Below are positions 2,255-12,847 of a stretch of 64,000 bases of DNA, in pieces. This DNA is from Leptolyngbya sp. PCC 6406. GTDB lineage: Bacteria; Cyanobacteriota; Cyanobacteriia; Phormidesmidales; Phormidesmidaceae. Each line of letters opens with the position of its first letter. The stretch's first letter is position 1. The notes under the pieces were generated by a model. The model made no database searches, had not been told where the DNA came from, and saw only the letters and a list, made by a program, of their open reading frames with translations. The DNA lies in contig NZ_KI913949.1 in assembly GCF_000332095.2 (NCBI RefSeq), positions 2,396,512 to 2,460,511 on the forward strand, read 5' to 3'. The position numbers were made by a program, and so were the translations under genes.

Positions 2255-2262
2255 GGGAATTG

Positions 2263-3303
2263 GTGGTTAAGAAATCTCTCTCGGCTACAGATCCTTCCCG
2301 TCATCTGGTCAAGCTAAGTCAGCAGGTGTTTACAGAGGAGTGCGATCGCACTTCCTTTATCCAGACCCTACAGCATCCCATCTCCTATCCCCCCGCCATT
2401 CTCTGGACCCGCCCTCGCCCTGAGTCCTTGCCGTCGGACCTGACCCCGTTACCGCCCCTGACTTGGCAGCCGACCTGGGTCGATCGACTGCCCCTGGGTA
2501 GCCGTCCGGGAGCCCATCCTCTGCACCAATCCGGCCATTTCTACTGTCTGGACTTTTCCTCCATATTTGCCATTTCAGTACTGGGAGCGATTCCTACCCC
2601 CGTGACTACCTTGGTGGACCTTTGTGCTGCCCCTGGGGGCAAGAGTCTCTACAGTTGGCGGGCTCTCCAGCCCACAACCCTCCTCTGCAATGAGACCGTG
2701 CGTAAGCGGGTCAAAATTCTGATTGCCAACCTCAAGCGCTGCGGGGTATTCCAGGCCCAGGTATTCAACCTGGACCCCGCACTGTGGGCAGAACATACCC
2801 CCCACAGTGCCCAAGTGGTGGTGGTGGATGCCCCCTGTAGCGGCCAATCCCTATTAGCCAAAGGGGGAAAGGTTCCTGGTTGCTTCCATCCGATCACCAC
2901 GAATCGTAATGCCAATCGTCAAAAGCGGATTCTGGCGGGTGCGGCTCAACTGGTGGCACCAGGGGGCTATCTGGTATACACCACCTGCACCTATGCCCCG
3001 GCGGAAAATGAGGAGGTGGGGGCATGGTTACTTCAGCGATTCCCGGAATTCGCTCCTGTCCCTGTACCCTATCTCCAGGGGTTCCAGTCGGCTCTAACGG
3101 ATCTGCCCTGTTATCGCCTGTGGCCCCAGTCGGGGCTGGGGGCGGGCAGTTTTGCCCTGCTGTTGCACAATACCCAGGCGGGCCAATCTGCTTCTCTCAA
3201 TACCGAGTTCCTCGACCCTCGCTGCTATCGCCTGTCGCCAGGAGCGCCCGGTTCAGGTTCAGGGGATTCAGATCCAGGTCTGGATTTAAAAATTCAGGAT
3301 TAG
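2263..3303 (+). CDS. RsmB/RsmF-type RNA m5C methyltransferase (NOL1/NOP2/Sun family)
   Basis: The protein carries the SAM-binding motif DLCAAPGGKS near residue 120, the PCS motif (C192) inside DAPCSG, and the catalytic TC motif (C242) inside TTCTYAPAENE. These are the two cysteines expected in RNA cytosine-C5 methyltransferases, which act on rRNA or tRNA. At about 346 residues it is shorter than RsmB and lacks the N-terminal NusB-like domain. I chose the GTG at 2263 because an AGGGGA at 2253-2258 fits it; an in-frame TTG at 2260 is the alternative. The last base of the stop codon TAG belongs to an inserted repeat element (3303-3440); without the insertion the gene would end in TAA at nearly the same place. 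Confidence 0.9.
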   Translation: MVKKSLSATDPSRHLVKLSQQVFTEECDRTSFIQTLQHPISYPPAILWTRPRPESLPSDLTPLPPLTWQPTWVDRLPLGSRPGAHPLHQSGHFYCLDFSSIFAISVLGAIPTPVTTLVDLCAAPGGKSLYSWRALQPTTLLCNETVRKRVKILIANLKRCGVFQAQVFNLDPALWAEHTPHSAQVVVVDAPCSGQSLLAKGGKVPGCFHPITTNRNANRQKRILAGAAQLVAPGGYLVYTTCTYAPAENEEVGAWLLQRFPEFAPVPVPYLQGFQSALTDLPCYRLWPQSGLGAGSFALLLHNTQAGQSASLNTEFLDPRCYRLSPGAPGSGSGDSDPGLDLKIQD

Positions 3304-3440
3304 GGTATCAACGTAAGCCGAGACAATATTGGTTCCAAGGAATTCAGGAGTCAGGAGTCAGAATCCAGTACTCTCCTAGATTCTGGCTCCTAACTCCTAA
3401 CTCCTCCCCAGAACACTTGTCCCGCTTTGAGTTGATACCC
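3303..3440. mobile_element. MITE-like element with 8-bp target duplication
   Basis: The element begins GGGTATCAAC and ends GTTGATACCC, with the similarity of the two ends continuing inward to GACAA/TTGTC. It is flanked on both sides by CAGGATTA (3295-3302 and 3441-3448), a direct repeat expected from an 8-bp target-site duplication. Its middle (about 3349-3400) is a second imperfect palindrome centred on GTACTC. It has no coding capacity. A partial copy, lacking the left end, lies at about 46522-46605. It sits in the stop codon of the methyltransferase gene. Confidence 0.85.
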
Positions 3441-3480
3441 CAGGATTAAATCAAGTGGGATAGCGGTCTCGGCTTCCCAC

Positions 3481-3501
3481 GGTCAGGCAGGATGCCTAAC
3501 C
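3481..3501. repeat. Palindromic dispersed repeat (GGTCAGGCA family)
   Basis: This 21-bp imperfect palindrome matches the reverse complement of the palindrome at 41704-41724 in all but one position. It lies in the gap between the methyltransferase and zinc-ribbon genes. Confidence 0.7.
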
Positions 3502-3603
3502 TAAAAGACCGGGATTCCTCACCTTGCCATCGATTTCCGCGTGGGAGGGCAGGGGTTAGCGTCACAATAGGATGGAACAGAACCCGACGGCGGCATACCC
3601 ACC

Positions 3604-4341
3604 ATGGCTTACACCTGCGACTTAGGCGGCGGACAGCATCTTTACATTGACAACATTGGTGACCAAACCGCTGTCACCCTAGCTTCGGGGGGGCCGGGGC
3701 AACAGCAGCAGTCCGGTAGCCAGTTCACCACTGGGGCTTGGACCGCACCGCCGGAGCTATTTCGCACCGAACACGGGGTTGTGATCAAGCTCAGTACGAA
3801 CCAGGGCGATCAGCATCTCCAGTTCCAATCGGGGCAATTGGGTTGGATGTCTAGTGGCCATACCCTGGCCCATGCCCAGCAGATGCAGACGAGCCAAGTA
3901 GCGGCGATGCCGAAGGGGACGCTGCCGACGATGGAACCGATGCAGTTTTCCCAACCCGCTTCGTCCCAAGTTTCCCATGCCCCCGGTGCCCAACCGAGTC
4001 CGATGCCCTCGGTGACTCCTGGAATGCAGCCGATGGAACCGATGCGTCCTATGCAGCCTATGGAACCGATGCGCCCCATGCAGCCGATGCAAATGGGGAA
4101 TATGACGATGAATGCCAACCCCATGGAGATGCGGATGGGGAATATGGAAATGCGGATGGGGACACCCCCTTCCAGGACTTCCCCGGATCATGCGTCTGCG
4201 GCGAGTGCTGCGGCGAGTACTGCCTCGGCTAATTCCTCGGCCTCTAGTGGGTCTGCCAGCAAGTTTTGTAGTCAGTGTGGTTCTCCGGTGCAGCCCAGCG
4301 ATCGCTTTTGTGCCAATTGTGGTCACCCATTGGGAACGTAA
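3604..4341 (+). CDS. Cyanobacterial Met-rich protein with C-terminal zinc ribbon
   Basis: The 245-residue protein has three parts. Residues 1-90 form a Gln/Gly-containing domain that I recognise as conserved in cyanobacteria but of unknown function. Residues 134-186 are extremely methionine-rich, built from repeats of QPMEPMRPM and then M-x-M motifs. Residues 220-245 are a zinc ribbon of the type CxxC-x10-CxxC (C222, C225, C236, C239). There is no signal peptide or membrane segment. The Met-rich run could bind copper(I) or silver, or may simply be low-complexity sequence; this is inference. The start ATG at 3604 follows a weak ribosome-binding site. Confidence 0.85.
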   Translation: MAYTCDLGGGQHLYIDNIGDQTAVTLASGGPGQQQQSGSQFTTGAWTAPPELFRTEHGVVIKLSTNQGDQHLQFQSGQLGWMSSGHTLAHAQQMQTSQVAAMPKGTLPTMEPMQFSQPASSQVSHAPGAQPSPMPSVTPGMQPMEPMRPMQPMEPMRPMQPMQMGNMTMNANPMEMRMGNMEMRMGTPPSRTSPDHASAASAAASTASANSSASSGSASKFCSQCGSPVQPSDRFCANCGHPLGT

Positions 4342-4400
4342 TTGTAGTAAGTCTAAATACCGGGTCTAAATACCGGACATAGCGTAACGAGGGATGGGGC

Positions 4401-5678
4401 ATGACCGCGACGGTAGCGTTGGTATTGCGGCGGGGGCGACTGCTAGGGAGCCCTGCGACGGGGGAATTGGTGGATATTGCTATGGATGGCGGCTATATCA
4501 CCGCTATTGGTCCCCGGCTTGCGGTGACTGGAGCCCAGGAGATTGATGTGCAGGGGCAGTTGGTGAGTCCCCCTTTTGTAGAATCCCACATTCACCTCGA
4601 CTCGGCGCTGACCGCTGGCCAGCCCCGCTGGAATGAGAGTGGCACCCTGTTTGAGGGGATTGCCATCTGGAGCGATCGCAAACAGTCCCTAACGCTGGCG
4701 GATGTTCAGGAACGTGCGATCGCAGCTTTGAAGATGCAGGCCCGCCAAGGGGTGCTGTTTGTCCGTAGCCATGCCGATGTCAGCGAGCCCAATTTCACCC
4801 CTCTGAAGGCGCTGCTGGCGGTGCGAGAGGCGGTGAAGGACTGGATCACTGTGCAGGTGGTGGCCTTTCCCCAGGATGGGATCTACAGCTCACCGGGAAA
4901 TGCGGAGCGGATGGAGGAGGCGCTAAAACTGGGGGCCGATGCGGTGGGGGGCATTCCCCACTACGAACTGACGCGGGAGGATGGGGTGAAGTCGGTGCAG
5001 TACGGCTTTGACCTGGCGGAAAAGTACGATCGCTTGGTGGATATCCACTGCGACGAAATTGATGATGACCAATCCCGGTTTCTAGAGGTGGTGGCGGCGG
5101 AGGCCATCCGCCGGAACATGGGTCATCGGGTCACCGCCAGCCACACGACCGCCTTTGGCTCCTATAACAATGCCTATGCCTTTAAGCTGATGGGCTTTGT
5201 CAAGCGGGCAGGGATTAACTTTGTCGCCAATCCCCTGATCAACCTCACCCTCCAGGGGCGGGGCGACACCTACCCCAAGCGGCGGGGCTTGACCCGCGTC
5301 AAGGAACTGTGGCAGCAGGGACAGAATGTGAGTCTGGGCAGCGACTGTATTCAGGATCCTTGGTACAGCTTGGGGACGGGTAATCTACTGGAGGTGGCCT
5401 CTGTGGCGGTCCACGGCTGCCAAATGACGGGCCGGGACCAACTGGAAGCCTGCTATGCCATGATTACGGAGAATGGTGCCCGTACTCTGAATCTGGCGGG
5501 GAATTATGGGCTGGCGGTGGGGCAACCCGCTAATGTTATTACCCTGGATACGACGGATGAGATCGCAGCAATCCGCGATCGCGCCACGGTCTGCACCGTA
5601 ATTTCGCGGGGAGTCCCCCTGGTAACCACGGTACCGGCCCAAACCACCTGGCATCGAGATCCCGGTAACTTGAGTTAA
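4401..5678 (+). CDS. Cytosine deaminase-family amidohydrolase (candidate 5-methylcytosine deaminase)
   Basis: The 425-residue protein aligns along its whole length with E. coli CodA, a cytosolic metal-dependent amidohydrolase that converts cytosine to uracil. The metal and catalytic residues are all present: H63 and H65, Q158, H216, E219, H248 and D315. The residue after the metal aspartate, Asp314 in CodA, is Cys316 here (GSDCIQDPW against GHDDVFDPW). Work on bacterial 5-methylcytosine deaminases reported that loss of conservation at Asp314 marks enzymes accepting 5-methylcytosine, so this enzyme may make thymine from 5-methylcytosine rather than, or as well as, uracil from cytosine. A GAGGGATGGGG stretch lies just before the start. 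Confidence 0.9.
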   Translation: MTATVALVLRRGRLLGSPATGELVDIAMDGGYITAIGPRLAVTGAQEIDVQGQLVSPPFVESHIHLDSALTAGQPRWNESGTLFEGIAIWSDRKQSLTLADVQERAIAALKMQARQGVLFVRSHADVSEPNFTPLKALLAVREAVKDWITVQVVAFPQDGIYSSPGNAERMEEALKLGADAVGGIPHYELTREDGVKSVQYGFDLAEKYDRLVDIHCDEIDDDQSRFLEVVAAEAIRRNMGHRVTASHTTAFGSYNNAYAFKLMGFVKRAGINFVANPLINLTLQGRGDTYPKRRGLTRVKELWQQGQNVSLGSDCIQDPWYSLGTGNLLEVASVAVHGCQMTGRDQLEACYAMITENGARTLNLAGNYGLAVGQPANVITLDTTDEIAAIRDRATVCTVISRGVPLVTTVPAQTTWHRDPGNLS

Positions 5679-5850
5679 GCAGGGGGTGAGGTTCCCGACT
5701 TCCCCAAGAAGATTTCATAAAGGTCAGAAAAATTTGAATATCCGATGAAGAGCAGTTCTACGGGTGCGCGATGATGGAGAGAATCGCCACAATAAGAACT
5801 ATTGAGCTTGCCCTCGGGTAGAGACCTCAAATTAATCGGGTGCAACTGCT

Positions 5851-7647
5851 ATGGCTAGTCAGATTTTGGGTGGTCGTTACCACATTCTCCATCACTTGGG
5901 TGGGGGAGGATTTGGGCAAACCTATCTCGCCGAGGATCGACATCTGCCGGGACATCCCCGCTGTGTCGTCAAACGGCTCCAGCCCCGGACAACGGATCCT
6001 ATCGCCCTAGAGTCGGCCCGCCGCCTCTTCGACGCGGAGGCGGAAGCGCTCTATTCCCTAGGCACCCACGATCAAATTCCCCGCCTGCTAGCCCACTTTG
6101 AGGAAAACACCCAGTTTTACCTCGTGCAGGAATATGTGGAAGGCACCCTGCTGACGGAGGAAATCCACCCCGGTAAACAGCTCTCAGAAACGGCGGTGGT
6201 GGAGCTAATGCAGGATGTCCTCAACACCCTCCGCATTGTTCACCACCATCAGGTCATTCACCGGGATATTAAGCCCTCTAACTTGATTCGCCGCCATCGG
6301 GACGGCAAGATCGTGGTGATTGATTTTGGCTCGGTGAAACAGGTCAGCAGCCAGCCCATTGAGGAAAATGGCCAGATCAGCATTACCGTGGCCATCGGCT
6401 CCATGGGCTACATGCCCAACGAGCAACTGGCGGGGCAACCCAGCCTCAGCAGCGATATCTATGCCGTGGGAATGCTGGCTCTGCAAGCCCTGACGGGCCT
6501 CGATCCCCGCCGGATGCCCAAGGATCCCCGCACCAGTGAGGTCATGTGGCGGGATTTGACTTCGGTACAATCTCCCCTGGCCGATGTGATTGACAAGATG
6601 GTGCGCTACGACTTTCGCCAGCGCTACCACAGTGCGGGCGAAGCGTTCCAAGCTTTGCAGGCAGCGATTTCGCCGACTCCCGTTGTCGTTCCAGCGACTT
6701 CCCTGGCCACAGGGATTACCCCCACCCCTGCGACGTTTTCCGAGAGTCATCTGGCTTGGCTAGAGCGGGCCGATGAGCTATTTCAACAAAATCGCTTTGC
6801 CGATGCCCTGCCTTGGTACGACAAGGTGGTGCAGATTCAGCCCGATGCTGTTACCGCTTGGTTCAAGCTGGCCTTGGCCCAAGAAAACTTGGGTAACCCA
6901 GAGGCGGCGGTGGTGGCCTACGATCGCGTGCTGCAACTCCAGCCCGATGACTACCTGGCTTGGCTAAAGCGGGGCAATGCCCTAGAGCAATTGGGGCGGA
7001 TGGAGGGAGCCCTAGCGGCCTATGAGGAGGTGCTTCGGATTCAACCAGACAACTACTGGGTCTGGAATGATCTGGGCCAGATCCAGGAACGCCTCAACGA
7101 ATTGGATACCGCGATCGCGGCCTACAATCGGGCCATCCAACTCAAGCCCGACTTTCAACTGGCGCTGGAGAACCGCAAGCGCCTGCTGATTGCCCTCAAG
7201 CGGGTGGAAGCCCTCTACACCCTGCACCATTACGAAGAAACCATTACCGCCTGCGACCAAGCCATCCAGGATAACCCTCGCGATGTCGATGTTTGGCTGA
7301 TGCGAGGTATGGCCCTGGAAAACCTAAAGCGGATGCCGGAAGCCGCCATGGCCTACAACCGGGTGGTGCAGTTGCAGCCGGAGGATCATATGACTTGGTT
7401 CAAACTGGGCAGCATTCTAGAAAGCCTAGATCGAGTCCAGCAAGCGGCGATCGCCTTTGGCAATGTGGTGCGCCTCCAGCCGACTAACCACTGGGCATGG
7501 CATCAGCGGGGCCGAATGCTGGAAATGTTAGACCGCTCCCGAGATGCGATCGCATCCTACCAGCAGGCCATCCAAGTCAAACCCGACTACGAAGCCGCCC
7601 GCAGCGCCTACCACCAACTCCTGCGGCAAACCGTCCCCGCCTCCTGA
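5851..7647 (+). CDS. Ser/Thr protein kinase with C-terminal TPR repeats
   Basis: The 598-residue protein starts directly with the kinase domain: glycine loop LGGGGFGQT at residues 16-24, HRD at H137-R138-D139 and DFG starting at D158. It has no zinc ribbon, unlike the kinase at 275-2254. From about residue 305 to the end it is made of consecutive tetratricopeptide repeats of 34 residues (pattern AWF/KLG..L..LGR...A..AY..V..L.P). TPRs bind proteins, so this part probably recruits substrates or partners. No membrane segment is visible. The upstream 170 bp hold nothing I can recognise, and the substrate is unknown. Confidence 0.95.
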   Translation: MASQILGGRYHILHHLGGGGFGQTYLAEDRHLPGHPRCVVKRLQPRTTDPIALESARRLFDAEAEALYSLGTHDQIPRLLAHFEENTQFYLVQEYVEGTLLTEEIHPGKQLSETAVVELMQDVLNTLRIVHHHQVIHRDIKPSNLIRRHRDGKIVVIDFGSVKQVSSQPIEENGQISITVAIGSMGYMPNEQLAGQPSLSSDIYAVGMLALQALTGLDPRRMPKDPRTSEVMWRDLTSVQSPLADVIDKMVRYDFRQRYHSAGEAFQALQAAISPTPVVVPATSLATGITPTPATFSESHLAWLERADELFQQNRFADALPWYDKVVQIQPDAVTAWFKLALAQENLGNPEAAVVAYDRVLQLQPDDYLAWLKRGNALEQLGRMEGALAAYEEVLRIQPDNYWVWNDLGQIQERLNELDTAIAAYNRAIQLKPDFQLALENRKRLLIALKRVEALYTLHHYEETITACDQAIQDNPRDVDVWLMRGMALENLKRMPEAAMAYNRVVQLQPEDHMTWFKLGSILESLDRVQQAAIAFGNVVRLQPTNHWAWHQRGRMLEMLDRSRDAIASYQQAIQVKPDYEAARSAYHQLLRQTVPAS

Positions 7648-8289: not shown

Positions 8290-11200
8290 CTAGAAAAACT
8301 GCCCCAAGTCGAGATCGGGGGCCAGCTTCCGGGCCTCCTCCAGCTTTGCCGCCGCCGCCCCCCGCTCCCCATCCTGGGCCAGCGCCACCGCCTGGGCCTG
8401 ATAATACCGGGCCAAATCCTGCCGCCCCCACACCTGCTGCTGACAAAACGCCGCCACCTGCCGCTCTAGGTCGCTACGGGGCCGGGTCAAGCACCGCTGC
8501 CGCAACAACCGCAAACTACAGGCATACAACCAATCCCGCCACGTCCCTCCCGGCCACAGGCGCACCGTGCCGTCATCCCCCGCCGACACCACCCGATCCC
8601 CCTGGGGGCTAAAGGCCACCGCCAAGACCCTGCCCGCATGGCCCTGCCAGGGCGCGCCGATCTGACCGCCCGCCAGATCCCACAGGCGCACCGTGCCGTC
8701 ATCCCCCGCCGACACCACCCGATCCCCCTGTGGGCTAAAGGCCACCGCCAAGACCGTGCCCGCATGGCCCTGCCAGGGCGCGCCGATCTGAGTACCCGCC
8801 AGATCCCACAGGCGTACGGTGCTGTCCGCCCCCGCCGAGGCGACCCGATCCCCTTGGGGGCTAAAGGCCACCGCCAAGACCGAGCCCGAATGGCCCTGCC
8901 AGGGCGCGCCGATCTGAGCGCCCTCCAGATCCCACAGGCGCAGGGTGCCGTCAGAGCCCGCCGACACCACCCGATCCCCCTGTGGGCTAAAGGCCACCGC
9001 ATAAACCCCGCTAAAGACCCCACCCGAATGGCCCTGCCAGGGGTTACCGATCTGATTACCTGCCAGATCCCACAGTCGCAAGGTACAGTCCTCCCCTGCC
9101 GAGACCACCCGATCCCCTTGGGGGCTAAAGGCCACCGCCCTGACCCATTCCTGATGGCCCTGCCAGGGGTTACCAATCTGATTATCTGCCAGATCCCACA
9201 GTCGCAAGGTACAGTCCTCCCCTGCCGAGACCACCTGCTCTCCCTGGGGGCTAAAGGCCACTGCATTGATATGGCCGTCATGGCCCCACCAGGGTTTGTC
9301 GAGCTGAGTACCCGCCAGATCCCACAGGCGTACGGTGCCGTCCGCCCCCGCCGAGGCGACCCGATCCCCCTGGGGGCTAAAGGCCACCGCTAAAATCGTG
9401 CTGTCATGGCCCTGCCAGAGGTTATCGAGCTGAATACCTGCCAGATCCCACAGATGCACGGTGCCGTCCGCCCCCGCTGAGGCCACCCGATCCCCCTGTG
9501 GGCTAAAGATCACTGCATTGACATAGCCGTTATGGCCCTGCCAGGGTTTGCCGAGCTGAGTACCCGCCAGATCCCACAGGCGTACGGTGCTGTCCGCCCC
9601 CGCCGAGGCGACCCGATCCCCCTGTGGGCTAAAGGCCACCGCCAAGACCGAGCTCGAATGGCCCTGCCAGGGCGGGCCGATCTGAGCGCCCTCCAGATCC
9701 CACAGGCGCACCGTGCCGTCATCGCCCGCCGAGGCGATCCGATCCCCCTGGGGACTAAAGGCCACCGCCCTAACCCATCCCTCATGGCCCTGCCAGGGGT
9801 CGCCGATCTGATTGCCTGCCAGATCCCACAGGCGCACCGTGCCGTCCGCCCCTGCGGAGGCCACCCGATCCCCCTGTGACCTAAAGGCCACCGCATTGAC
9901 CCATCCCTCATGGCCCTGCCAGGGTTTGCCGATCTGATTGCCTGCCAGATCCCACAGGCGCACCGTGCCGTCCGCCCCTGCGGAGGCCACCTGATTCCCC
10001 TGTGGGTTAAAAGCCACTGCCTCGCCGCCCCCGCCAAGGAATATATCCGAGTGGGCTTGCCAGGGGTCGCCGATCTGATTGCCTGCCAGATCCCACAGGC
10101 GCACCGTGCCGTCCGCCCCCGCCGAGACCACCCGATCTCCCTGTGGGCTAAGAGCCACCCCCCTGACCTCATTCCCATGGCCCTGCCAGGGTTTGCCGAT
10201 CTGATTACCTGCCAGATCCCACAGGCGCACCGTGCCGTTACGCCCCGCTGATACCACTCGATCCCCTTGGGGGCTAAAGGCCACTGCATTGACAGAGCCC
10301 GAATGGCACTGCCAGCGCATGAAGTCGCAGGGGTGGGTGAAGGCCCGATGCAGCACGTCTTGGACAGGGGAAATTACTTCCCCTTGGAACTTGACTTGGC
10401 TGATGGTTACAGCTTGGATGGCCAAGAGGTGTTTTTCCAGGGGATTGGTGTTGGGGGCAGTATTGAGGCGGGTACAAGTTTCCCTCAACTGAGCCTCAGC
10501 CAAGGCTTTTTCTAACGCCGCCACCCGCCCCTGTTCCTGGGCATCGCTGTGGTCAAAAAAGTCCCGCAGCGGCCCCGCTGACACCGCCAACGCCCCCCAC
10601 TGCTCCCGTAGCTCTGCTAGCAGACCCCCCTGCACCAGATAGGCATCATCCTGCCCTTTCTCTTCCCACTCCTGCTGGGCATCCTTCAGCCGTTGCACCA
10701 ACAGGTGCTGAGCCCGGTTTTCCTGCCGCCACTCCACAAACCGAGGCCACCCCCCCATCAGCGCCTCATGGGCCAAATCCAATAGCTCCCCATTTTTTCC
10801 ATCCCGCACCAACAGCCGCCCCGCCACCAATGCCTCCTGCACATCAACCCAGATTTGCTGATCTGGCCCTGCTGCCTGCTGCGCTAGCAACCGCTGCCAC
10901 TCCTGGCGACAGCGGGTATCCACCCCCTCCGGCCCAATCCGCACCAACGCCACACACAGATCCCGACAGATCTGCCGCTCCCGCTCCGTTTTAAGATCCC
11001 GTTGATAAAGGGTCTCCGCCCGCTGGGCCAACGCCCCCTGCAACCGCCCCATGGCTCGATAGGCAGCAACGGTAAGCTGGTGCTGGGTGCGATCTCGCTG
11101 CTGCCACAACTCCGCCAGGGCAAACTCCAGCAACGGCAAACAATTGGGCTCCGTCGCCCCATCATCCAAAATCAACCCCAGCAACTCCCCCGGCACCTGG

Positions 11201-12570
11201 TAGTTGAGACAGGCCGCTGGCCCCGTAATCGCCTGCTCCAGATCCGCCCCCACCAGCGGCCCCAACCACACCGCCCCCTGCTGGATCATCGGCATCAACT
11301 GGTGACAGGCCAACCACTGGGGGACAAAATCCGCCCGCATCGTCATCACCACCCGCACCACTGGCTCCGGCCCTTGCCACACCGCCGCCAACCAATCCAG
11401 CACCCGCCGCCGCCCCGCCCCATCCCGGCAGACCGTAAACAGCTCCTCAAACTGATCCACCACCATCAACGTCGGTGGCCCCGGTGGCCACATCGCCACC
11501 ACCGCCCCCCAGTCCCCCGCCTCCAGATGGCCATACACCGCCCCAATATCGCGGTTGCCAAACACCTGTCGAAAGCTGCGCTTCACCTCCCCCCAGGGCT
11601 CCAGCCCCGGCATCCACGGCTCCAACACCCGCCACCCCTGTTCCTGCGCCCAGGGCACCACCCCCGCCCGCACCACCGAGGACTTGCCACTACCCGATGG
11701 CCCAATCACCGGCACCACCGCCCCCCGGCCCAAGTGCTGCACGATTTGGACAATTTCGCGATCCCTACCAAAGAAAAACCGCCGCGTCTCCGGCGTAAAC
11801 GCCCGCAACCCCTGGTAAGGTTCACTGGTTTCGTCCTCCACAGGTGCGATCGGCTGGTGGCGCGATCGCACCACCACCACATCCGTCCCCGCATTGAGCC
11901 AAGTTGGTTCCTGCCCCACCCCCCGCAACTCAGCACTGATCCGCTGAAATAATCCCGAAGTGGTGATGTCCCCGGCCTCAGGCGGTGACTGCAACCCCGC
12001 CACCAACGCCCCCGTAAACAAACTATGGCGATCCTCCCGCTCCGCATAGGCTTGTTCAAATCCCCGACAGGCGGCAATCAGGCAATAGTTGCGATCGATG
12101 AAGGCTGACAACCCGGCCTGAATCGTCCCCTGCTCTAGGGCATAGCCACTGTGGCAACAATCCAAAAACATCACCAGGCTGGCCAAATTAGCCCGCTGCA
12201 CCAACCCATTCAAGCGCCGAAAGGATAACCCCCGCCGCTGATTCAGTACCCGATCCCCCGCCAGTTCCACCTGGCAGTCCGCCGTAGCCAAGTACCCCTC
12301 CTGGTCGTCCTCCGTCTCCCCCGCGATGAACCCATGGCCCGTGAAGTAGATCACCACGTCATCCCGGTTGGCCCGCTTCAGGAGTAGGGTTTCTAGGGCG
12401 GAGCCTAGGCAACCGAACGTGACCCCATCTATAAGTAGCTGGATATCCTGAAAATCTCCCCGCTGCTTCAGCAGGTCATGCACCCTTTGGGCATCCCCTT
12501 CCGGTTTGGTCAGCCGAGATAAATACTGGTACTGCTGGCCAATGCCAACAATCAGGGCATAACGGGGCAT
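8290..12570 (-). CDS. Caspase-like peptidase fused to STAND ATPase and 14 WD40 repeats
   Basis: The N-terminus (about residues 1-240) is a C14 caspase/orthocaspase domain with catalytic H79 (YFTGHG) and C139 (LDCCHSG). It is followed by an nSTAND-type ATPase with Walker [10 protein letters not shown] and Walker B-like LMVVDQFEELFT. The C-terminal part has 14 WD40 repeats of about 42 residues, enough for two seven-bladed propellers, then a short helical tail. Such proteins are thought to be sensors that oligomerise on a signal and turn on the protease, for regulated cell death or anti-phage defence; that role is inferred here. I chose the ATG at 12570 (MPRYALIVGIG) over a TTG 30 bases upstream because homology begins there. 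Confidence 0.95.
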   Translation of the reverse strand: MPRYALIVGIGQQYQYLSRLTKPEGDAQRVHDLLKQRGDFQDIQLLIDGVTFGCLGSALETLLLKRANRDDVVIYFTGHGFIAGETEDDQEGYLATADCQVELAGDRVLNQRRGLSFRRLNGLVQRANLASLVMFLDCCHSGYALEQGTIQAGLSAFIDRNYCLIAACRGFEQAYAEREDRHSLFTGALVAGLQSPPEAGDITTSGLFQRISAELRGVGQEPTWLNAGTDVVVVRSRHQPIAPVEDETSEPYQGLRAFTPETRRFFFGRDREIVQIVQHLGRGAVVPVIGPSGSGKSSVVRAGVVPWAQEQGWRVLEPWMPGLEPWGEVKRSFRQVFGNRDIGAVYGHLEAGDWGAVVAMWPPGPPTLMVVDQFEELFTVCRDGAGRRRVLDWLAAVWQGPEPVVRVVMTMRADFVPQWLACHQLMPMIQQGAVWLGPLVGADLEQAITGPAACLNYQVPGELLGLILDDGATEPNCLPLLEFALAELWQQRDRTQHQLTVAAYRAMGRLQGALAQRAETLYQRDLKTERERQICRDLCVALVRIGPEGVDTRCRQEWQRLLAQQAAGPDQQIWVDVQEALVAGRLLVRDGKNGELLDLAHEALMGGWPRFVEWRQENRAQHLLVQRLKDAQQEWEEKGQDDAYLVQGGLLAELREQWGALAVSAGPLRDFFDHSDAQEQGRVAALEKALAEAQLRETCTRLNTAPNTNPLEKHLLAIQAVTISQVKFQGEVISPVQDVLHRAFTHPCDFMRWQCHSGSVNAVAFSPQGDRVVSAGRNGTVRLWDLAGNQIGKPWQGHGNEVRGVALSPQGDRVVSAGADGTVRLWDLAGNQIGDPWQAHSDIFLGGGGEAVAFNPQGNQVASAGADGTVRLWDLAGNQIGKPWQGHEGWVNAVAFRSQGDRVASAGADGTVRLWDLAGNQIGDPWQGHEGWVRAVAFSPQGDRIASAGDDGTVRLWDLEGAQIGPPWQGHSSSVLAVAFSPQGDRVASAGADSTVRLWDLAGTQLGKPWQGHNGYVNAVIFSPQGDRVASAGADGTVHLWDLAGIQLDNLWQGHDSTILAVAFSPQGDRVASAGADGTVRLWDLAGTQLDKPWWGHDGHINAVAFSPQGEQVVSAGEDCTLRLWDLADNQIGNPWQGHQEWVRAVAFSPQGDRVVSAGEDCTLRLWDLAGNQIGNPWQGHSGGVFSGVYAVAFSPQGDRVVSAGSDGTLRLWDLEGAQIGAPWQGHSGSVLAVAFSPQGDRVASAGADSTVRLWDLAGTQIGAPWQGHAGTVLAVAFSPQGDRVVSAGDDGTVRLWDLAGGQIGAPWQGHAGRVLAVAFSPQGDRVVSAGDDGTVRLWPGGTWRDWLYACSLRLLRQRCLTRPRSDLERQVAAFCQQQVWGRQDLARYYQAQAVALAQDGERGAAAAKLEEARKLAPDLDLGQFF
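8540..10320 (-). repeat. Coding tandem array of about 126-bp WD40 units
   Basis: Fourteen units of about 126 bp encode the WD40 repeats of the caspase-like protein. Many are nearly identical in DNA (for example the stretch coding AFSPQGDRVVSAG and the stretch coding TVRLWDLAG), more alike than protein selection requires. This points to recent duplication or gene conversion inside the array. Units 3 and 11 carry small insertions of 4-5 codons. Confidence 0.9.
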
Positions 12571-12847
12571 AGTTAGGGGTCGCTGAGGTTCGATTACCAA
12601 GGATTGGGCGGCGACGGTTTATCCCGGTGCCCTGAAAACGGGGCATCGCTGGCGCGGGTGCATCCTACGACCTTGATGCTGGGGGTGTTGACATCATATT
12701 CCCTGCCCCACTGTTCATCCAGTGCATCGTCGTCTCCTCATCTGCTTTTCTTCACCGTCTCCCCATAATTCAGTGCGCCGGACTGCGCCGGACTGGGTCG
12801 GGACAGGCTATATGTAGTCTGGTGCCCAGATTTCCCCGAGGTAAGCC

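Follow-up and report, generated by a model that had tools for sequence, protein, structure and literature searches.

In E. coli CodA, Asp314 is the residue that excludes C5-substituted bases and keeps 5-methylcytosine out. A passage of PMC6186785 reports that CodA gains activity on 5-methylcytosine when this aspartate is changed to alanine (the residue is numbered 315 in a figure of that paper), and that a 5-methylcytosine deaminase of Klebsiella has serine at the same position. A stretch of 64,000 nucleotides from Leptolyngbya sp. PCC 6406, hereafter the window, encodes a relative of CodA with cysteine there, and its preliminary description raised the question pursued here: does the cysteine mark an enzyme for 5-methylcytosine, and can the organism use the thymine that such an enzyme would release?

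The gene is an intact open reading frame (Table 1). In a PDB search, a match with E. coli CodA covered residues 23-419 (E about 1e-130; 53.0% identity in 398 aligned residues), and Kpn00632 of Klebsiella pneumoniae also matched the product (E 2.5e-128; 54.7% identity over 360 residues); CodA and the Klebsiella structure 4R7W are its nearest solved relatives, with almost equal matches. The window protein passed the Pfam thresholds of both Amidohydro_3 and Amidohydro_1, as well as the curated cut-offs of NF006685 (cytosine deaminase; 523.7 bits, cut-off 483) and NF005748 (479.5 bits, cut-off 438). The NF005748 score does not discriminate because CodA passes too (490.9 bits), and NCBIfam was rejected as a means of telling CodA from the PRK07572 group, given that the window protein, CodA and, narrowly, Kpn00632 pass both cut-offs. 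Since Kpn00632, which has no aspartate at the site, scores 602 bits on NF006685, Asp314 was taken as a marker of substrate range and not as a criterion of membership.

An AlphaFold2 model computed from the window protein and 26 cyanobacterial rows has a mean pLDDT of 85.8, with stretches 251-255 and 286-296 below 50. It adopts the amidohydrolase barrel fold, and its best structural match is CodA 1k6w (Z 55.6, rmsd 1.9, 405 aligned). Wild-type and mutant CodA structures gave Z scores of 55.3-55.6 and the Klebsiella structures 4r88 and 4r7w 54.5-54.6, which are effectively tied, so the structural search was likewise rejected as an arbiter between CodA and Kpn00632. A search of the own genome (5.78 Mb, 3 contigs) revealed a 28% identical paralogue elsewhere, with Asn at the Asp314 site.

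Table 1 Coding sequence and active-site codons of the window gene (window coordinates).
Feature	Position	Strand	Evidence
CodA-family amidohydrolase CDS, ATG 4401 to stop 5678	4401..5678	+	425 aa, stop included; PDB and profile matches, model
Metal ligands His63 and His65 (HIH), codons	4587..4595	+	CodA alignment
Gln158 codon (CodA Gln156)	4872..4874	+	Gln in 96/96 cyanobacterial and all tabulated reference rows
Metal ligand His216, codon	5046..5048	+	CodA alignment, cyanobacterial loci
Catalytic Glu219, codon	5055..5057	+	CodA alignment, cyanobacterial loci
Catalytic His248, codon	5142..5144	+	CodA alignment, tabulated rows
Metal ligand Asp315, codon	5343..5345	+	CodA alignment, cyanobacterial loci
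Cys316 codon (CodA Asp314 position)	5346..5348	+	Alignments; Cys in 96/96 cyanobacterial loci
Gln318 codon (CodA Phe316 position)	5352..5354	+	Tabulated rows

The metal and catalytic residues of CodA had been said to align with the window protein at an offset of two, and this was borne out: CodA His61, His63, Gln156, His214, Glu217, His246 and Asp313 correspond to His63, His65, Gln158, His216, Glu219, His248 and Asp315, all of them kept. We take the HxH pair, His214 and Asp313 of CodA to be metal ligands, Glu217 and His246 to be catalytic, and Gln156 to serve in base recognition. Part of these roles is supported by a passage of PMC6186785. The window protein is a metal-dependent CodA-type amidohydrolase in which the set of metal and catalytic residues is complete.

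The alignment also confirmed that CodA Asp314 corresponds to Cys316. The specificity motif reads SDCIQDPWY in the window protein, HDDVFDPWY in CodA and DSIQDPWY in Kpn00632; CodA thus has Asp314 and Phe316 where the window protein has Cys and Gln. Of the 96 cyanobacterial loci, 91 likewise have glutamine at the Phe316 site, as do 3 of the 4 Kpn00632-type rows. Both positions are important in the engineering of CodA: its mutants in the PDB include D314A, D314G, D314S and V152A/F316C/D317G, and a mutant with F316C is 3g77; according to a passage of PMC4282525, the V152A/F316C/D317G changes give CodA a higher affinity for 5-fluorocytosine.

The best relatives of the window protein in the contig collection are 80 cyanobacterial loci, and all 80, together with the copy in the own genome, have Cys at the Asp314 site. 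When 16 loci from a genome search were added, every one of the 96 cyanobacterial orthologue loci, in addition to the window, had Cys, the two sets coming from overlapping species and so not being independent. The 80-locus set had been drawn partly with a peptide pattern that contains the Cys. We checked this search bias on 78 rows, leaving out L014 and L019, which show stops in tblastn: 41 were found without the Cys pattern and 8 solely by it, and all have Cys. The cysteine is real, neither chance nor an oddity of a single genome, and is common to the cyanobacterial clade.

The gene is widespread but patchy, since an orthologue of at least 61% identity occurs in 17 of 292 genomes of an even sample of the cyanobacterial phylum, the own genome included. 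One further genome holds a 48% identical relative of the proteobacterial-type group with a BMP-like ORF adjoining, and in one (L102, genome G229) the orthologue survives only as broken pieces with several stops, a decaying copy. No relatives were found in the viral contig collection; nine phage records had matches, the best of which look like bacterial DNA within phage records. Among the papers listed by literature searches on cyanobacterial cytosine deaminase with 5-methylcytosine or 5-fluorocytosine, none studied this clade.

To follow the history of the site, we masked the specificity motif and built a maximum-likelihood tree from 53 rows. A first tree, which included long outgroup rows, was only weakly supported at its root; because of these long branches, the 53-row tree was built without those rows, and duplicates and long-branch rows were removed between the two. 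Rows too short were dropped (L113 from the first tree, L134 from both). In the resulting tree, which draws its non-cyanobacterial rows almost entirely from plasmid records and has a long outgroup branch, the 25 cyanobacterial rows, all with Cys, form one clade (support 100/99). Its sister (99/93) holds both CodA, with Asp, and the Kpn00632 group, with Ser. The Asp rows of the sister clade are CodA-like rows, one actinobacterial row and one from Levilactobacillus, with the Kpn00632 group nested inside (95/92 at the inner fork). Outside both clades lie haloarchaeal rows (Ser, with one divergent Asn), a transporter-linked proteobacterial group (Cys) and one Ser row, so that Cys or Ser is the usual state at the site in the other groups sampled. 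Placement in a tree with characterised enzymes had been proposed as a check, and here, in both trees, the window clade falls outside the clade of CodA and Kpn00632 and hence does not group with the latter.

For the node at which the cyanobacterial and CodA clades meet, a simple equal-rates reconstruction gave Cys 0.65 (0.50-0.76 over three rates) and Asp 0.25 (0.16-0.37); lowering the rate to 0.3 times its fitted value raised Cys to 0.76, and tripling it brought Cys down to 0.50. At the root of the group, Asp received about 0.03. With moderate support, Asp was thus probably derived inside the CodA clade and probably lost secondarily in Kpn00632. The description of the site as an Asp replaced by Cys then probably reads the change backwards, tree and reconstruction both favouring Cys as the older residue, and the cysteine would be no telling loss in the cyanobacterial lineage.

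The gene neighbourhood gives little guidance to function. In a clustering of ORFs around the 80 cyanobacterial loci and the window, no conserved neighbour appeared in more than 20 loci, and the widest-shared one belongs to a common type of Ser/Thr kinase. Nor did any conserved neighbour in the clustering or around the 96 orthologue loci tie the gene to 5-methylcytosine. Downstream of the window gene lies a Ser/Thr kinase with TPRs that has matches near 23 loci; in six of these (L001, L004, L005, L007, L045 and L087) the kinase follows by 255-469 bases, a pattern suggestive of local synteny among close relatives. Operon logic was rejected, as neither the upstream nor the downstream neighbours are conserved. 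Promoter and terminator scans of positions 3250-5950 yielded about as many sites as shuffled sequence, and Rfam detected one tRNA in the window, away from the deaminase.

Several other genes of the window deserve mention. Two genes upstream of the deaminase, positions 2260-3303 (+) encode an NSUN/RsmB-RsmF-like RNA cytosine-C5 methyltransferase whose NCBIfam matches all fall well short of the curated cut-offs (at best 130 bits where 690 is required, and 122.8 where 210.45 is). It was rejected as a source of 5-methylcytosine, having a relative near only 1 of the 96 orthologues, at 33% identity. A 245-residue protein (3604-4341, +), encoded 59 bases upstream of the deaminase, is rich in Met, Pro and Gln in its middle part and resembles a zinc ribbon at its C-terminus (CxxC...CxxC); it had no NCBIfam match and no relative near the 96 orthologue loci. 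On the other strand (8290-12600, -), a protein of 1436 residues has, judging by its translation, a caspase-like N-terminal region, an ATPase-like central part and numerous WD40-type repeats that are nearly identical to one another.

The own genome was also searched for enzymes that could supply or use the bases concerned. Three C5 DNA methyltransferases, each scoring above the cut-off of TIGR00675, support the earlier remark that this genome methylates its DNA, so 5-methylcytosine is likely made. Uracil phosphoribosyltransferase (Upp) is present, and uracil from cytosine is therefore re-usable. There is one PF02133 cytosine/purine permease, 75 kb from the deaminase gene, and one PF00860 permease. 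A profile search for a PF00265 thymidine kinase was negative, and nothing exceeded the cut-offs for pyrimidine-nucleoside phosphorylase or PreA-type dihydropyrimidine dehydrogenase, so thymine has no visible use here; salvage of 5-methylcytosine as thymine, as first proposed, finds no backing in these searches. With Upp present and no visible thymine route, conversion of cytosine to uracil fits at least as well. According to a passage of PMC10654061, every Prochlorococcus genome likewise lacks thymidine kinase, and Prochlorococcus releases thymidine.

With moderate confidence, we favour the view that the window enzyme is a CodA-type deaminase of cytosine, probably also of 5-methylcytosine and 5-fluorocytosine, that serves general pyrimidine-base salvage. 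It would hydrolytically remove the 4-amino group from cytosine-type free bases. Next to the C5 edge of the base, where CodA has a carboxylate, the window enzyme would present a small neutral cysteine, so its pocket may tolerate a C5 substituent. Cytosine would yield uracil, to be re-used through Upp, and the enzyme would probably also convert 5-methylcytosine to thymine and deaminate 5-fluorocytosine. Its everyday role would most likely be pyrimidine-base salvage and ammonia recovery, 5-methylcytosine being likely accepted but not necessarily the main substrate. From the sequence, a C5 pocket admitting 5-methylcytosine is plausible, although the cysteine alone is no proof. Clear activity on 5-methylcytosine is, in our estimate, likely; that this base is the main substrate is improbable; and a physiological use in thymine salvage is not supported by the genome. 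The original reading as a 5-methylcytosine deaminase thus holds in part: the changed site, the intact fold and catalytic set and the example of Kpn00632, also without the Asp, speak for it, but the pocket is otherwise CodA-like and the Asp is probably derived.

A dedicated enzyme, preferring 5-methylcytosine and having it as physiological substrate, as claimed for Kpn00632, seems unlikely to us. Like Kpn00632, the window protein lacks the Asp and has Gln at the Phe316 site, which would agree with such an enzyme, as would the three C5 DNA methyltransferases and the RNA methyltransferase-like gene two genes upstream; however, the rest of the pocket resembles CodA, none of the thymine-related enzymes sought exceeded its cut-off, and the upstream gene is hardly ever found near orthologues. 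We are equally doubtful of an ordinary cytosine deaminase whose Cys would simply be the older residue, with little effect on 5-methylcytosine. The reconstructed preference for Cys over Asp, the CodA-like NPLIN stretch and the presence of Upp are all consistent with it, but a missing Asp probably does affect activity on 5-methylcytosine, because the Asp-to-Ala change reported in the passage of PMC6186785 confers that activity on CodA.

A deaminase for some other base or heterocycle, such as isoguanine, isocytosine, creatinine, triazine-type amines or N4-methylcytosine, is very unlikely. The amidohydrolase superfamily is versatile, and AtzC is a structural neighbour of the model (Z 52.4), but AtzC is only 28-29% identical, with Asn at the Asp314 site and a different motif, against 53% for CodA. 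Rather speculatively, the favoured CodA-type deaminase may have kept an open C5 pocket as the older state in cyanobacteria, Asp314 having arisen in the CodA clade and been lost again in Kpn00632; these cyanobacteria would then make thymine that the usual route does not let them re-use, and may excrete it.

If this is true, 5-methylcytosine deamination would extend to a cyanobacterial enzyme clade. A site without Asp314 would then be the rule, E. coli CodA would be an exception with Asp314 itself as the novelty, and a criterion of lost Asp314 would over-call dedicated 5-methylcytosine deaminases in annotation. Cyanobacteria carrying the gene may also have a natural sensitivity to 5-fluorocytosine. 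This would be of practical relevance because 5-fluorocytosine serves with codA as a counter-selection marker, as described in a passage of PMC9313322.

Among known systems, the transporter-linked proteobacterial amidohydrolases of NF005748/PRK07572, labelled cytosine deaminase, share Cys at the Asp314 site with the window protein in 7 of 7 tabulated rows (six proteobacterial and one cyanobacterial, L101). They differ from it in having Met or Leu at the Phe316 site, where the window protein has Gln, and in their transporter neighbours, ABC genes or, at L101, a BMP-like ORF, present in six annotated or read loci (the seventh, from Cupriavidus, is unannotated). The window gene lies outside their clade, and its adjoining genes encode an unnamed protein and the Ser/Thr kinase, with no ABC or BMP gene. 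In L101 (cyanobacterial genome G177), a proteobacterial-type Cys deaminase stands beside a BMP-family lipoprotein-like ORF and falls in the tree among rows from Azospirillum and Cupriavidus, which looks like transfer between phyla. Cytosine deaminase-labelled proteins of haloarchaeal plasmids (L145, L150 and L155) have Ser at the site, two of the three beside codB, and may be further candidates for 5-methylcytosine activity. Plasmids of Klebsiella (L115) and Acinetobacter (L143) carry a Kpn00632-type deaminase with Ser, together with codB, a PucR-type regulator and nearby insertion-sequence genes.

The paper that described the discovery of bacterial 5-methylcytosine deaminases reportedly also covers enzymes of R. 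sphaeroides and C. glutamicum. It is cited in a passage of PMC6186785 as Biochemistry 2014, 53, 7426. Kpn00632, titled 5-methylcytosine deaminase in the PDB (4R7W, 4R85, 4R88), is the only structurally solved one of the family and lacks the Asp; the K. pneumoniae locus in our set (L130) is identical to 4r7w in 412 of 412 residues. Like the window protein, it has IQDPWY after the site and Gln at the Phe316 site, but it has Ser in place of Cys, and its gene adjoins codB and a PucR-type regulator, neither of which accompanies the window gene. Stretch 277-281 reads CPTES in Kpn00632-type proteins, NPLIN in the window protein and NPLVN in CodA. In the numbering of the window protein, position 314 is Gln in the Kpn00632 type, His in CodA and most cyanobacteria, and Ser in the window protein; position 313 is Ala in 3 of 4 Kpn00632-type rows and Gly in CodA and the window protein. 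At these positions, picked from sequence around conserved motifs rather than by contact with the base, the remainder of the pocket stretch resembles CodA and not Kpn00632. With CodA itself, a cytosine/isoguanine deaminase (PDB 1K6W, 3O7U; NF006685/PRK09230), the window protein shares the fold, the metal ligands, the catalytic Glu and His, Gln156 and the NPLIN-type stretch; in E. coli, codB directly precedes codA, whereas the neighbours read around the window gene include no codB-like gene.
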